Part shown: positions 10,246 to 48,029 of the stretch, piece after piece
Position numbering within the stretch: position 1 is the first letter of the stretch
Layout: the number at the start of each line of letters is the position of its first letter
Assembly: GCA_947452455.1 (NCBI GenBank)
Contig: CANGBX010000006.1
Coordinates: forward strand, 1 to 64,000
DNA from: Beijerinckiaceae bacterium
Lineage (GTDB): Bacteria > Pseudomonadota > Alphaproteobacteria > Rhizobiales > Beijerinckiaceae
DNA length: 64,000 bases
Reading direction: 5' to 3'
Made by a program: the position numbers and the translations under genes
The notes under the pieces: generated by a model
What the model was told of the DNA's origin: nothing
The model's database searches: none
Seen by the model: only the letters and a program-made list of their open reading frames with translations

Positions 10246-11286
10246 ATGAGGTCTCATCTGCGATTATTTTTGGCTGGAATGGCTATCGCACTGCCCTTGC
10301 TTCCTGCTGCAGCGCAAGAAGACGCTGGCCGCGCCTATTATGCAGGCAAGACGGTGCGTATGGTTGTCGGCTCCGGCCCGGGTGGTGGCTATGATGTGTT
10401 TACGCGCATTATCGCCCCCTATTTTTCCAAAACCTTGGGCACGACGGTCGTGGTTGAAAATCGGCCCGGCGCCGGTGGCCTGACCTCGATGAATTATCTT
10501 TATACGGCGCCCCCGGATGGGCTCTCGCTTTCGCTGGCCAATGGCTCGGGCGCGGCTTTTGCGCAACTGACCAACCAACCCGGTGTGCGCTATGACCTCA
10601 CCAAATATGGCTATCTGGCCACAGTGGGCGCGCCCCCTTCCATCTGGCTGGTGAGCCCCGACTCGCCGATCAAAACTGTCGCTCAAGCTCTGGCGCGAAA
10701 AGAAAAGTGGCGCTGGGCGGCCTCTGGTTCGACATCAGGCCTTGCGATTGGCGCAGCCTTTACCTGCGAAGCTCTGCGCATGGATTGCCAGATTGTCGCC
10801 GGATATACGGGCAGCAATCAGGCGGCTTTTGCTCTGACGCGCGGCGAAATGGATGCGCAATTCCAGGCCGAATCTTCTGCAACCCATTTTGTACGTTCAA
10901 AAGAAGCGGCACCCATTGCCACCATGTCGCGGGTGCGTTCACGCTTCTTCCCCGATCACCCCACAATCTTCGAAGCTGTAAAACTTGATGATGATCAGGC
11001 TTGGTATTTCGACTTTTATGACAAGATCAGCAATCTGGGCCGGATTGTGATCGTCCCGCCGAATATGCCAGCTGCAAGACTGAGCTTTATGCAGGCCGCG
11101 ATGAAGGAAACGCTGGCCAATCCGCAATTGATCGCTGATGGCGAACGCGCGGAACGCATCATTGAATATCTCGATCCCGAAAGCACATTGAAAAATGCGC
11201 GCGGTGTGATTTCAGATCCCACTCCCGCCCAGCGCAAACGAGTGCAGGATATCATCGCAAAAATTCAGGACGAAGAAATCAAATGA
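10246..11286 (+). CDS. TctC/Bug family substrate-binding protein
   Basis: GGGYDVFTRIIAPYFSKTLGTTVVVENRPGAGGLTSMNYLY. Confidence 0.85.
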   Translation: MRSHLRLFLAGMAIALPLLPAAAQEDAGRAYYAGKTVRMVVGSGPGGGYDVFTRIIAPYFSKTLGTTVVVENRPGAGGLTSMNYLYTAPPDGLSLSLANGSGAAFAQLTNQPGVRYDLTKYGYLATVGAPPSIWLVSPDSPIKTVAQALARKEKWRWAASGSTSGLAIGAAFTCEALRMDCQIVAGYTGSNQAAFALTRGEMDAQFQAESSATHFVRSKEAAPIATMSRVRSRFFPDHPTIFEAVKLDDDQAWYFDFYDKISNLGRIVIVPPNMPAARLSFMQAAMKETLANPQLIADGERAERIIEYLDPESTLKNARGVISDPTPAQRKRVQDIIAKIQDEEIK

Positions 11287-15452: not shown

Positions 15453-16301
15453 ATGAGCGCTTCATTCGAAGATCGTTTTGTCTCGGTCGATGGCCTGCGT
15501 CTGCGCTATATTGAAGTGGGCGCGGGTCACCCAGTGATTTTCCTGCATGGAGGATCGCTGGGTTCGTCGGCCGATGTCTTTCGTCGAAACCTTCCGGTTT
15601 TTGCAAGTGCTGGCTATCGGGCGATTGCGTTTGATCAGCCGGGCTTTGGCCTGTCAGACGCGCCGCATGATCATTCCGGCGGATATAGGCGTGAATCGAT
15701 TGCGAATTTCATGGCTGCGCTTGGCCTCTCTCGGCCCGCCTGCATTGCCCATTCGCAGTCAGGGGGCATGGCTGTGCGGCTTGCTTTGAAGCAACCCGAT
15801 CTCTTCAGTCATCTGATCATTCTTGGTACGGGTTCTTTGTTGCCCCGGCTTGATGGCGGCGAAGACAAAGGCGGTGTGGTCCAGCAACGACTTGAGCGGC
15901 GTATGGCGTCCCAAGAGCCAAGCCTTGATGACACGCGCAAGTTACTTGAAGCCAATCTGTTCCATCATGATCTGATCACGGCGGATGAGCTCGAACTTCG
16001 TCATACGCGCAGCCTAGGCAAGGCTTTCGATGCTTTTGTCGCGCGCAATGCGCTGTCTGACTCCAGTCAAAAGAAAATCAAGGAGGAGGAGCCGATCTGG
16101 AAAAAACTGCGATCCATTCCAATCCCTCTGTTGATGATTTACGGCGCCAATGATCGTGCCCAGGCAGCGGAACGCGTCCGCTTGTTACAATCGTTAGAGC
16201 CTGATCTGCATCTCCACCTTGTGCCTGATTGCAAGCATCTCGTGCCGTGGGACGCGCAAATCGCTGTTGAGCGTATGGCCTTGTCTTTCTTGAAGAGCTG
16301 A
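15453..16301 (+). CDS. Alpha/beta hydrolase
   Basis: IFLHGGSLGSS, AHSQSGGMAVRLA, DCKHLVPWDAQ. Confidence 0.85.
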   Translation: MSASFEDRFVSVDGLRLRYIEVGAGHPVIFLHGGSLGSSADVFRRNLPVFASAGYRAIAFDQPGFGLSDAPHDHSGGYRRESIANFMAALGLSRPACIAHSQSGGMAVRLALKQPDLFSHLIILGTGSLLPRLDGGEDKGGVVQQRLERRMASQEPSLDDTRKLLEANLFHHDLITADELELRHTRSLGKAFDAFVARNALSDSSQKKIKEEEPIWKKLRSIPIPLLMIYGANDRAQAAERVRLLQSLEPDLHLHLVPDCKHLVPWDAQIAVERMALSFLKS

Positions 16302-20725: not shown

Positions 20726-22219
20726 TCAACCGGGCGAAAACATCGGAAAGCTCACGCCCAGAGACCAGGCTAAAATCAAGCCCAACGCAAGTCCTGCTGC
20801 AACGGGCGACATTGTGCGTCGTGCGACCCAGCCGCCCATCGTTCCGAAAACAACAAAGAACAAAACAATGACCGGAATAATGATCAATAAAAAGAAGAGA
20901 CGCTCGAAGTCCAATAGAACAGCGACCCCCAATGATGCGAGAAAAACGCCGCGGCCTAACAACACACGCCAATAGGGCGCGCGTCCACCATCTGCTGCAA
21001 GTGCATCGGCGACCATATAGGGCACGGATCCGATAGCGATCATGACAATCACTTGCGCGCGCGCAGCATTGGGCATGAAGGACGCGACATAGCGATCCAG
21101 TGCAAAACCGAAAATCAATATGCCATAGGCGGTGAGGGCTGCTGCTGATGCCAATGCAATCGGTTTCAACGTCACGCCGTTCCATGTCAGGACGCCGAGC
21201 GAAATAAGTCCAAATACAAACAGATGGGCTGCCAGATAATCGGCAACCAAGATCGGCAGGAAATGCGTATCGACAAGTGTCAGTAATAGGGGCGTGAGCG
21301 CAGCTGGCAGGAGAGTTACGAGAAGAAATGTCCGCAGGGGCAATGTTGTTGCGGGGCAATCCATGCGGGGCAATAGACCGGCCAATGGCCAAGCCAGAAG
21401 AAGAATTCCCGCCAGCAAGATGACAATCCATCCTCCTGTGGCAGCGATTGGAGTCTTGCTGTTGCGTCCAAATATGTCATCAAGCCAATCGCGTGCATCG
21501 CGCATGGCTGGTGATGAATAGAGCACGCTGACATGTTCGACATGGGGCGCCACAAAAGTGCGTCGACGGCTTGATGTCGATGGGTCGCTGATAGTGTCGC
21601 CTTCCTTTGCTGCGGGATCGGTGAGTTGTGCTTTCTGCAAAGCATTTGCGCGCAGGAAAGATTCCCATTCACCGGAAATCATCAAAAGATTGCGTGGCTC
21701 TGATTTCGTCACCGCTTCAGAGAACATTGAGATGGTGACGGTGGCTGACACGCGCGGATCTTCGACCGCTTCGCGCACGATAATGTCGGATGCCATGGAA
21801 TGGCCGAGCAGCGCGACGCGCCCATCAACCGATGGCAAGGCCAAAGCCGCATCAACCACGCGTCGCACTTCGCGTTTGAGGATTTGTGTTGTGCCGCTCA
21901 CCTGCGTGATGTCCCCGGTCATCGGTGTCGGGTTGCGGCCGTGTCCCTCAAAGTCAAATGAGACAGCAACATATCCAGCTTGCGCCAGCGTCAGCGCATA
22001 GGCTTCCATGAGCTGGCGAGATCCGGCAAAGCCATGCGCGATAACAACAGCCGGAGCCTTGCCCGCATTCTTGAGCTGATAAATTGTGGCGGGAGTTGAG
22101 CCCACAGAAAGCGCTGTGATCGTGAGGCCGGATCTTGCATGTTCAAGATTCCAGATGCCAAGTGCGCAAAATAATATGCCTGCAATGGCTGCCAGAAGAC
22201 GCGAGTGAAACGATCGCAC
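20726..22219 (-). CDS. Alpha/beta hydrolase fused to C-terminal polytopic membrane region
   Basis: AVVIAHGFAGSRQLME, LLGHSMASDIIV nucleophile; many TM segments; GTG start at 22219 chosen 3' of the preceding stop, preceded by GAGAGGC. Confidence 0.75.
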   Translation of the reverse strand: MRSFHSRLLAAIAGILFCALGIWNLEHARSGLTITALSVGSTPATIYQLKNAGKAPAVVIAHGFAGSRQLMEAYALTLAQAGYVAVSFDFEGHGRNPTPMTGDITQVSGTTQILKREVRRVVDAALALPSVDGRVALLGHSMASDIIVREAVEDPRVSATVTISMFSEAVTKSEPRNLLMISGEWESFLRANALQKAQLTDPAAKEGDTISDPSTSSRRRTFVAPHVEHVSVLYSSPAMRDARDWLDDIFGRNSKTPIAATGGWIVILLAGILLLAWPLAGLLPRMDCPATTLPLRTFLLVTLLPAALTPLLLTLVDTHFLPILVADYLAAHLFVFGLISLGVLTWNGVTLKPIALASAAALTAYGILIFGFALDRYVASFMPNAARAQVIVMIAIGSVPYMVADALAADGGRAPYWRVLLGRGVFLASLGVAVLLDFERLFFLLIIIPVIVLFFVVFGTMGGWVARRTMSPVAAGLALGLILAWSLGVSFPMFSPG

Positions 22220-22248: not shown

Positions 22249-23172
22249 TTACGTCGCTGCAAAAATACGAACGGCGACAGCGCTTGCCATCATGCCGAGC
22301 ACATAAAGCGGCACACCGAAACCGCTGTACCAATAGGCATCCTTGATCGGGTCTCGCACCAATCGCTTCATCATCAGCAATTGAGCCATCAGCAAGAGGG
22401 TTACAATGCCCGCTTCAATATATTGCTGCCACGACGCCAAGAGTCCGATGACGGCCATCTGCGGCAAAGCCATAATGGCGCTGGCAACAAGCGCGGCGCG
22501 CTCTGGGCCAAGTAGAACAGGGAGCGAGTTGATCCCCATTTCGCTGTCGCCTTTGATCGCCTTGAAGTCGTTCAGCGTCATAATGCCATGTGCGCCTGCG
22601 CCATAGAGAATGGCCAAGATCAGCACTTGTGTGGGCGGAAGAGAGCCGCCGAGCATGGCGGCAGCACCGGTGATCCAGGACAGGCTTTCATAAGAAAAAC
22701 CGCATGCTGCATTTCCCAGCCAGCCATTGCGCTTGAGGCGAAAGGGCGGTGCGCTATAGGCCCAAGCGAGTATGAGTCCGGCAATGGTTGCCACCATCAC
22801 CCATGGGCCGAGCGTGGCCGCGACAAGCAAGGACAGTACGGTCCAGATGCCGGCAATATAGAGCCCCCATTTGCCGGGGATGCGACCAGACGGAATGGGC
22901 CGATCGGGTTCATTGATCGCATCGACATGCCGGTCGTGCCAATCATTGATCGCTTGGCTCATGGCGCAAACCAGCGGGCCGGCAAGGATCATACCTGCCA
23001 GAATGATGTACCAATTTTGCAAGAGAGGTACGCCGGATGACACGACACCGCAGGCAAAAGCCCACATGGGCGGAAACCATGTGATCGGCTTCAGCAATTC
23101 AAGCACCGCTGATGGCTTGGGGTAGGCTGATGCGGGCTGTTCTGTCACCAGATCTGTCGGGTCAATACTCAA
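22249..23172 (-). CDS. bchG: (Bacterio)chlorophyll synthase, UbiA prenyltransferase family
   Basis: ELLKPITWFPPMWAFACGVVSSG; AGPLVCAMSQAINDWHDRHVDAINEPDRPIPSGRIPGKWGLYIA; YGAGAHGIMTLNDFKAIKGD: close to remembered BchG/ChlG sequence. Confidence 0.92.
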   Translation of the reverse strand: MSIDPTDLVTEQPASAYPKPSAVLELLKPITWFPPMWAFACGVVSSGVPLLQNWYIILAGMILAGPLVCAMSQAINDWHDRHVDAINEPDRPIPSGRIPGKWGLYIAGIWTVLSLLVAATLGPWVMVATIAGLILAWAYSAPPFRLKRNGWLGNAACGFSYESLSWITGAAAMLGGSLPPTQVLILAILYGAGAHGIMTLNDFKAIKGDSEMGINSLPVLLGPERAALVASAIMALPQMAVIGLLASWQQYIEAGIVTLLLMAQLLMMKRLVRDPIKDAYWYSGFGVPLYVLGMMASAVAVRIFAAT

Positions 23173-23561
23173 TGCGTTGGTTCCATGATTTCTCAGTCAG
23201 CGGCTTCCAGGCCCCGATCTGTCAAAAGCGAGCACAAGTCCGACCAATTTGAACAAATGATGAGCGGGTACGCAATGCCGCTTTGGGGGCGGGCTTGTGC
23301 GGGGTGGGGGCCAAAGCGCCAATGAGGCCCGCTTGCGGGCCCATCTCTCGAGGGTTCAAGGATGATGTTTTGTGCTCTGGGCAGGATTTTGAAAGATCAG
23401 GCCAATCTCAAATCATTTTGCACGCGTATTTATCAAATCGCACACGAATGGAGCTCGCCCGACTGGCTTCTCTGTTGCGGCTCCCCTCTTAACTCGCAGA
23501 TTTAAACTGTCACAGAATTTGCATCGAGTGAGTTTAAGAACGGCCAGCTCTTGCTCTACTT

Positions 23562-24885: not shown

Positions 24886-25215
24886 GGGAATATCCTTGTA
24901 GACATAGATAAAGAGAGACCTCGTGAGAGGTCCGTTGTGAATCGAAGAAGGAGTGTGGGGTCAGCAGAGCGCGTGAGCGCAGGGCTTAATCGCAAGCCAA
25001 ATAATCGATGGCCATACCTTTAGCGGTTCACGAGTAAATAGCAAGCAAACACTTGCTGGGAGGCATTTCGGCCCTTTTGAGTGACCTCGATTGGCTTTTA
25101 TGGCTTTCGGCTCCACGATTTGTGAAGGCAGGGTGTGCCCAAGCTTGGCCGCTGGCCGTTGCTTGTCGCTCTCTCATCGCAGAAAATCAGGGCAATAGAT
25201 CATGGGAGCGAAGCA

Positions 25216-26196
25216 ATGATCCTCACTCGTCGCAATGCGTTACAGGCTACCTTTGCCGCAGGCGCTCTGGCCGCCCTGGCGCCGAATGCTCTGGCGCAGG
25301 CCTATCCCGCCCGCCCTGTGCGCGTCATCATTCCTCTCGCGCCGGCAGGGGCATCCGATGTGGCCTTACGTCTTGTGCTCGATGAAATGGCGCGCGATCT
25401 TGGCCAGTCTTTCGTCGTCGAAAACCAGCCGGGCGCATCGGGCTTGGTGGGCATGCGCTCAGGTGCGCGCGCTGTTCCCGACGGCTATACGATCTTGGGC
25501 GTGAATGACAGCATCCTCACCATGCTGCCCGCGATGAAAGATGATGCGGGTTATGATCCGCTGGTTGATTTTGTGCCTGTCACGCAGCTCGTCAAAATTA
25601 ATTTTGCACTGATCGCGCATCCGACTTTCGCGCCGAGCAATGTGAAAGAGCTGGTCGCTCTGGCGAAAGAAAAACCGGGTGTGGTTGATTATGGATCGGG
25701 TGGTCCGGGCAGCCCGCAGCATGTGGCCATGGAATTGCTGATGCATGCGACTGGTATCAAGCTCAATCATGTGCCCTATCGCGGCGTTGCGCAGGCGTTC
25801 AACGATGTTGTCGGCGGGCATGTTCCGCTGATGATCACAGGCTTGCCTGCGCCAAATGAGCTGATCAACTCCGGAAAGCTGAAACTGCTCGGCATCACAT
25901 CGGCAGCGCGTTCCGCGGTCTTCCCGAACCAGGCAACAATCTCAGAGCAGGGCGTGACAGGTTACGACTTTACGACTTATGCGGGCTTGGTCGCGCCAGC
26001 AAAGACGCCCGCCCCAATTGTCGATCAGCTGAATAAATTGGCCTTGAAAGCCATGCAGGCACCAAATGTGCAAAAGAGGCTTACGGATATGGGCTTTGAT
26101 GTGATTGCCAATAGCTCGGCTGATTTTGCTGCGGTCATCAAAGACGGTCTCGCAAAATATTCAAATCTGTCGAAAGTGGCCAATATCCGCCTTTAA
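25216..26196 (+). CDS. TctC/Bug family substrate-binding protein (canonical subfamily)
   Basis: AYPARPVRVIIPLAPAGASDVALRLVLDEMARDLGQSFVVENQPGASG; start at MILTRRNAL. Confidence 0.88.
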   Translation: MILTRRNALQATFAAGALAALAPNALAQAYPARPVRVIIPLAPAGASDVALRLVLDEMARDLGQSFVVENQPGASGLVGMRSGARAVPDGYTILGVNDSILTMLPAMKDDAGYDPLVDFVPVTQLVKINFALIAHPTFAPSNVKELVALAKEKPGVVDYGSGGPGSPQHVAMELLMHATGIKLNHVPYRGVAQAFNDVVGGHVPLMITGLPAPNELINSGKLKLLGITSAARSAVFPNQATISEQGVTGYDFTTYAGLVAPAKTPAPIVDQLNKLALKAMQAPNVQKRLTDMGFDVIANSSADFAAVIKDGLAKYSNLSKVANIRL

Positions 26197-46961: not shown

Positions 46962-47939
46962 TTAATTCTTCGGAATATTCGCCTTGGTGATGACATCGCC
47001 CCATTTGACAATGTCGCTCTCCAATTGCTTGGCGAGTTGCGCGCCAGCAAGGGCCTTGGCTTCAATGCCGAGTTCCAGAAGTTTGCGCTTGATCTCGTCT
47101 TCAGCAATCACTTCGGCAATGGCCTTTTGCATTTTGGCAATCACATCTGCAGGTGTGCCGGCCGGTGCAAAGATCGCGTTCCAGGATGTCACATCATAGC
47201 CGGGCACGCCCGCTTCTGCGGCGGTCGGCAGATTGGGCGTCACAGGTGAGCGTGTCGGGCCGGATGAGGCGAGGGCGCGCACTTGCTTGTCATCAATCAT
47301 GCTCTTCAGCGCTGAATAGGAATCAATCATCAGATCAACATCGCCGCGAGTCAGCGAGAGCGTGAGATCGGGCGTGTTTCGGAAGGGCACGATGCGGAAA
47401 TCCAAGCCTGTTGCCGACTTCAGCAATTCACCTGACAGATTTTGCGTGGAGCCGACAATCACCGTGCCGACATTCATCTTGCCGGGGTTGGCTTTGCCGT
47501 AATCGATAAAATCTTTCAGCGTCTGATAGCGTGACTTGGCGTCCGTCGCGAGAATGAAATCGAAGAAGCCGAGTGTCGAGACGGGCGTGAAATCTTTCAC
47601 CGGATCAAAACGCAATTCCTTGAACATATTCACGCTGACGGCCGTGCCGTTGGAGAAGAGCGCGAGCGTATAGCCATCGGTACCACCTGCCAGAACCGCG
47701 CGCGCCGCATTGATGCCGCCGGGGCCGGGCTGGTTCTCGATCACAAAACGCTGGCCGAGCTTGTCGCCCAAACGCTCGGTCACAATGCGTGCGGTAATAT
47801 CGGCCACGCCGCCCGCGCCAAAGGGCAGGATCAAACGGATGGGCTTGTTCGGCCAAGCCGCATTTTGCGCGAAAGCGGGCGTGGACAGCGCGGCAGTGCC
47901 CATCAATGCTGTGAAATGGCGTCGGGTGACATGAGACAT
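46962..47939 (-). CDS. TctC/Bug family substrate-binding protein (canonical subfamily)
   Basis: WPNKPIRLILPFGAGGVADITARIVTERLGDKLGQRFVIENQPGPGG. Confidence 0.9.
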   Translation of the reverse strand: MSHVTRRHFTALMGTAALSTPAFAQNAAWPNKPIRLILPFGAGGVADITARIVTERLGDKLGQRFVIENQPGPGGINAARAVLAGGTDGYTLALFSNGTAVSVNMFKELRFDPVKDFTPVSTLGFFDFILATDAKSRYQTLKDFIDYGKANPGKMNVGTVIVGSTQNLSGELLKSATGLDFRIVPFRNTPDLTLSLTRGDVDLMIDSYSALKSMIDDKQVRALASSGPTRSPVTPNLPTAAEAGVPGYDVTSWNAIFAPAGTPADVIAKMQKAIAEVIAEDEIKRKLLELGIEAKALAGAQLAKQLESDIVKWGDVITKANIPKN

Positions 47940-48029
47940 GCAATTGGCTCCTGAACAGCGTTTTCCTCAATGCAGAGCGCAACACAAAGGCGGCTTCAGC
48001 GCAAATGCATGAATTTCATCTTTTCTTTA

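Follow-up and report, generated by a model that had tools for sequence, protein, structure and literature searches.

Probable displacement of the photosynthesis-cluster bchG by a bacteriochlorophyll synthase gene of another lineage in a phototroph of the Hyphomicrobiales

The bacteriochlorophyll synthase gene bchG is commonly regarded as a fixed member of the photosynthesis gene cluster (PGC), and the PGCs of purple bacteria carry it in the canonical block ppsR–bchG–pucC–bchP. Because bchG is held to be fixed there, a PGC without it could be taken for the sign of a broken pathway, and a bchG that is present alone could be mistaken for a novelty of a non-phototroph. Two sets of α/β-hydrolases are also relevant here: BchO, the PGC hydrolase of bchIDO, and the plant chlorophyll dephytylase, pheophytinase and chlorophyllase, which cleave the ester made by chlorophyll synthase. 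Here we describe a bchG whose product shares family scores, substrate motifs and a diagnostic Phe column with the BchG of Rhodobacter sphaeroides and R. capsulatus. Unlike the usual gene, it lies outside the PGC, belongs to a separate lineage, has no PpsR-like sites upstream and is coupled to a hydrolase gene, abh. In the literature searched, neither such bchG displacement nor the abh hydrolase was found described.

The window, the whole 64-kb stretch of DNA analysed, lies on the 209-kb contig C6 of the draft genome G000 (3.05 Mb in 13 contigs, 95.6% complete, 0.17% contamination). The bchG open reading frame encodes 307 amino acids from a TTG start codon with a weak ribosome-binding site, no good one being seen (Table 1), and the plus strand across the same interval is interrupted by stops. 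The protein scores above the cut-offs of NCBIfam models TIGR01476 (345.6 bits, cut-off 212.3) and NF005742 (414.6 bits, cut-off 313) and below that of the chlorophyll a synthase (ChlG) model TIGR02056 (193.3, cut-off 436.45); its top match among solved structures is chlorophyll a synthase (E 3e-54). The dN/dS of the gene, 0.086 against the sister genome G027, indicates purifying selection and thus no chance reading frame. All the BchG motifs quoted in an earlier, sequence-only reading of the window are present, and NDxxDRxxDxxxxxxR was found in 96 of the 96 BchG compared. At the column that separates BchG from ChlG by Phe or Ile, where Phe marks the bacteriochlorophyllide type (PMC9066304), the window protein carries Phe. 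By its sequence this bchG is unremarkable; what is unusual is where it stands in evolution. Its product is expected to catalyse the usual BchG reaction.

Table 1 Features of the bchG–abh locus, in positions of the window
Feature	Position	Strand	Basis or remark
Type-2 bchG, bacteriochlorophyll a synthase	22249..23172	(-)	TIGR01476 and NF005742, phylogeny, dN/dS 0.086
Phe33 (ITW-F)	23074..23076	(-)	Column is Ile in chlorophyll synthase; alignment
Motif NDxxDRxxDxxxxxxR (NDWHDRHVDAINEPDR), predicted substrate coordination	22900..22947	(-)	Motif as in PMC9066304
Second acidic motif NDFKAIKGD	22546..22572	(-)	Sequence; alignment to solved chlorophyll synthase
Region upstream of bchG	23173..23422	(-)	Without TGT-N12-ACA or TTGAC-N10-GTCAA palindrome
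abh, about 497-aa membrane-anchored α/β-hydrolase	20726..22219	(-)	Restricted to BchG-positive genomes
Predicted catalytic Ser132 (GHSMASD) of abh	21797..21799	(-)	Numbering of the 488-aa form, from 22192
Probable triad partner Glu177 of abh	21662..21664	(-)	
Probable triad partner His220 of abh	21533..21535	(-)	

The sequence-only reading had called this gene an orphan, a description that holds for the window and fails for the genome as a whole. Its statement that the 64 kb hold no bch, crt or puf neighbours was borne out when about 30 PGC proteins from this genome were run against it by tblastn, the one exception being a weak match (32%) between BchO and a generic hydrolase encoded at 15474; the other 145 kb of the contig are likewise free of such genes. 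Bug-type tripartite-tricarboxylate binding proteins are encoded at 10339–10974, 25135–26196 and 46974–47954 of the window, together with ABC importers; such genes are frequent in related loci too.

G000 is an aerobic-type anoxygenic phototroph of the Hyphomicrobiales, related to the Beijerinckiaceae. Its PGC is near-complete and is divided by an assembly gap: pufL closes contig C1 and pufM opens C2, so the two halves are joined by inference only. The cluster genes, named by sequence and order where no family search was made, include crt, bchC, bchX, bchY, bchZ, pufC, bchP, pucC, ppsR, a ppaA-like regulator gene, bchF, bchN, bchH, bchL, bchM, lhaA, acsF, puhE, hemA, bchD and bchI; a separate bchO is present, and two PucC-family proteins are encoded. 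The genes that the sequence-only reading proposed to seek elsewhere in the genome (pufLM, bchXYZ, acsF and bchP) were all found, on other contigs, and the first of its two alternatives, a detached piece of a phototrophy system, proved right. G000 encodes three UbiA-family proteins, namely heme o synthase, 4-hydroxybenzoate prenyltransferase and the BchG of the window, whose gene is thus the sole bchG found. A cytochrome P450 gene, an unusual partner, lies within the crt part of the PGC (C1:636376–637752; L007:4977–6353) and adjoins crtB and a phytoene-desaturase-like gene.

The canonical block is present in G000 with bchG missing. Where relatives have the order ppsR–bchG–pucC–bchP, contig C2 reads bchP, pucC, 137 bp and ppsR, leaving the bchG position between pucC and ppsR empty; the window gene, on C6, is beside neither bchP nor pucC. 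In a blastn comparison with G012, where bchG is still in the slot, the match extends 23 bp beyond the pucC start, into the former bchG end, and homology restarts 63 bp ahead of the ppsR stop. The G000 slot still holds the codons RDLPGV from the end of the lost bchG, along with the palindrome TTGAC-N10-GTCAA (L008:5166), which is also found in G012 and G061. On this alignment the slot is a precise deletion in which the bchG open reading frame was removed and the promoter palindrome retained; the promoter presumably serves pucC–bchP.

The window gene is, on phylogenetic grounds, of a different lineage and not the moved native bchG. Between G012 and G000, the products of bchP, pucC, ppsR, bchF, bchN and pufC are 81–94% identical (63% for the fast regulator ppaA), and the BchG of G012, encoded amid those genes, is only 61% identical to that of the window. 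The BchP tree joins G000 and G012 (support 100/99). In the BchG tree, whose deep nodes are weak, the window protein is nested among proteobacterial BchG, within a clade of 21 rows (99/96), here called type 2, that is nearest to betaproteobacterial BchG (97/90). An approximately unbiased (AU) test rejected forcing the BchG of the window and G027 together with those of G012 and G025 (p 8.8e-5); the window BchG thus fails to group with the BchG of relatives that share its PGC. The sequence-only reading had named, as evidence against itself, a complete second bchG inside an intact photosynthesis cluster combined with a window copy branching outside BchG, or a placement in another UbiA subfamily; no second bchG was found, and the window copy nests within BchG.

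We consider it highly probable that the sole bchG of G000 is a type-2 copy outside the PGC and that the native gene in the slot was deleted. A type-2 bchG, of different lineage, would have become established outside the PGC first; the native bchG between ppsR and pucC would have been lost afterwards, its promoter left to drive pucC–bchP. The window gene would then be the only bacteriochlorophyll a synthase of G000, esterifying bacteriochlorophyllide a with geranylgeranyl or phytyl diphosphate, and would be transcribed as a two-gene operon with abh, which encodes a membrane-anchored α/β-hydrolase.

Comparison of relatives, most of them metagenome-assembled genomes, indicates that the type-2 lineage replaced the PGC bchG at least three times. 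The G000 lineage is one case. In a second, Methylobacterium adhaesivum and Leaf99 have a BchP that falls inside Methylobacterium, an empty slot and a type-2 BchG; an AU test rejected placing that BchG with the others of Methylobacterium (p 4.5e-4). The third comprises G016, G032 and G033, with empty slots, type-2 BchG and a BchP sister to that of G010, which retains canonical BchG. The slot is also empty in G065 and in the Bosea genome G066. Earlier stages are visible as well: type-2 and canonical bchG are both intact in G068, and G061 has a type-2 bchG plus a 43-codon fossil of canonical bchG in the slot. A resident bchG thus appears to have been displaced repeatedly by one lineage, with the stages (both copies, fossil and clean deletion) preserved in living relatives, which makes displacement of a photosynthesis gene directly testable, including in cultured Methylobacterium.

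Several of these genomes have further peculiarities. The canonical bchG of G068 (L224) sits on a long branch (0.96), as a gene under relaxed constraint might. G061 contains a third, broken bchG fragment (L223:9190–9700, about residues 194–301) that adjoins a BciA-like gene, which suggests that a type-2 bchG was formerly there. In G017 and G034 a type-2 bchG is present and a reaction-centre gene was found in neither; G034 has a bchH fragment, and G017 (100% complete, 9% contaminated) has none.

The type-2 gene may have come by transfer or by an old duplication. Ancient duplication with differential loss, in which type-2 and canonical bchG were both present in an early ancestor and no recent horizontal transfer took place, differs from the displacement account in source, not in the displacement itself. 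It would fit the two copies still carried by G068 and the distribution of type-2 bchG over several families of one order. We nevertheless regard it as unlikely, because type-2 BchG is nearest to betaproteobacterial BchG rather than forming the sister group of the canonical BchG of its own order, because only some Methylobacterium species have it, and because many parallel losses would be required. A rearrangement that moved the cluster's own bchG, with no replacement of lineage, would leave an identical picture of a single bchG and an empty slot; the low identity of the BchG of the nearest PGC relative beside that of the PGC proteins, the rejected grouping of window and G012 BchG, and the clustering of type-2 genes with one another across families make it very unlikely. 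That the window contig came from another organism is conceivable for a draft genome in 13 contigs, yet it is extremely improbable: contamination is low, base composition agrees, and the independent genome G027 shares both the bchG–abh–transporter synteny (91%, 84% and 97–100%) and the PGC flank (93–94% DNA identity). Scarcely credible is the second alternative of the sequence-only reading, in which a non-phototroph has turned the synthase to prenylating another tetrapyrrole: although the window has no PGC and neither the sister genome G027 nor G017 has detectable reaction-centre genes or bchH, G000 has a PGC that includes reaction-centre genes, G027 has puhE–hemA–bchD–bchI on a contig ending inside the PGC, and Phe33 and the motifs are those of an ordinary BchG.

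We also dropped a reading of G027 as having bchG but no reaction centre: its contig C31 stops within the PGC, so the missing reaction-centre genes reflect an assembly gap. The bchI of G027 (L251:3742–4759) spans two frames, through a frameshift or an assembly error.

The upstream regions of the two kinds of bchG differ. Of 78 canonical bchG, scanned over about 290 bp that span the start and the DNA upstream of it, 46 carry TGT-N12-ACA, against an expectation of 2.65 from shuffled sequences, and 18 carry TTGAC-N10-GTCAA, against an expectation of 0; among 24 type-2 entries, which are related and not independent and include a few cases of one locus fetched twice, the former occurs in one and the latter in none. 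Neither palindrome was found in the region upstream of the window bchG listed in Table 1. These counts suggest that type-2 bchG left PpsR-type control. PpsR control of the window gene itself is unsupported, the sole near-match, TGT-N11-ACA, having the wrong spacing and not being conserved in G027.

The partner gene, abh, starts with GTG 29 bp downstream of the bchG stop on the same strand, with GAGAGG ahead of it, and the two genes probably form an operon. The pair is also found in G027, L062–L065, L067, L068, G236 and G149, and in reversed order, abh followed by bchG, in L069 and Leaf108; elsewhere abh is found close to pufC and dxs within the PGC, ahead of bchI, or next to a BciA-like reductase gene. 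Its product has an N-terminal transmembrane segment, an α/β-hydrolase domain and about eight C-terminal transmembrane segments. Ser132, Glu177 and His220 probably make up the catalytic triad; all three residues are invariant in nine aligned relatives. Among 61 relatives, abh is present in 11 of the 20 BchG-positive genomes and in none of the 41 that are BchG-negative (Fisher p 4e-7). Across 398 genomes of the order the figures are 30 of 74 and 0 of 324 (p 3.8e-25), and in both comparisons the genomes are not phylogenetically independent, the 30 carriers spanning 17 families. Since, among the genomes of the order that were searched, only phototrophs have abh, it is a good candidate to fill a missing step of pigment metabolism or turnover. 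Three cyanobacteria and a Palleronia have plasmids that encode similar proteins; those on the Nostoc carneum plasmid (L347) and the Palleronia plasmid (L346) are comparable in length, and their hydrolase domain matches (34–45% identity).

Attempts to identify abh by sequence or fold returned general α/β-hydrolase matches only, the top fold and structure matches, YjfP and PETase among them, being generic serine hydrolases. Like abh, BchO is a photosynthesis-linked α/β-hydrolase, but it has about 300 amino acids and no C-terminal membrane domain, and G000 has its own bchO; TIGR03056, sought as the BchO family, was absent among the families that abh matched at E up to 0.001. The likeness to plant chlorophyll dephytylase, pheophytinase and chlorophyllase is one of functional analogy only. 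By that analogy we suggest, as the most appealing idea but tentatively and with low confidence, that bchG–abh could be a bacteriochlorophyll turnover module: the hydrolase would cleave the isoprenoid tail off bacteriochlorophyll, or off a related pigment ester, and the synthase would re-add it, in a salvage cycle outside PpsR control. If so, it would be the purple-bacterial counterpart of the plant pair of chlorophyll synthase and dephytylase, and could explain why native bchG was repeatedly displaced by type 2.

In some relatives the neighbouring gene encodes a short-chain dehydrogenase/reductase (SDR) that we take to be BciA-like, that is, 8-vinyl reductase-like; it matched no curated NCBIfam model. 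The name rests in part on its 73% match to a protein encoded on a Rhodobacter replicon, whose annotation goes no further than NAD(P)H-binding protein. Either bchG or abh adjoins this gene in L053 (G017), L064, L065, L327 and L328, forming a small tetrapyrrole outpost outside the PGC.
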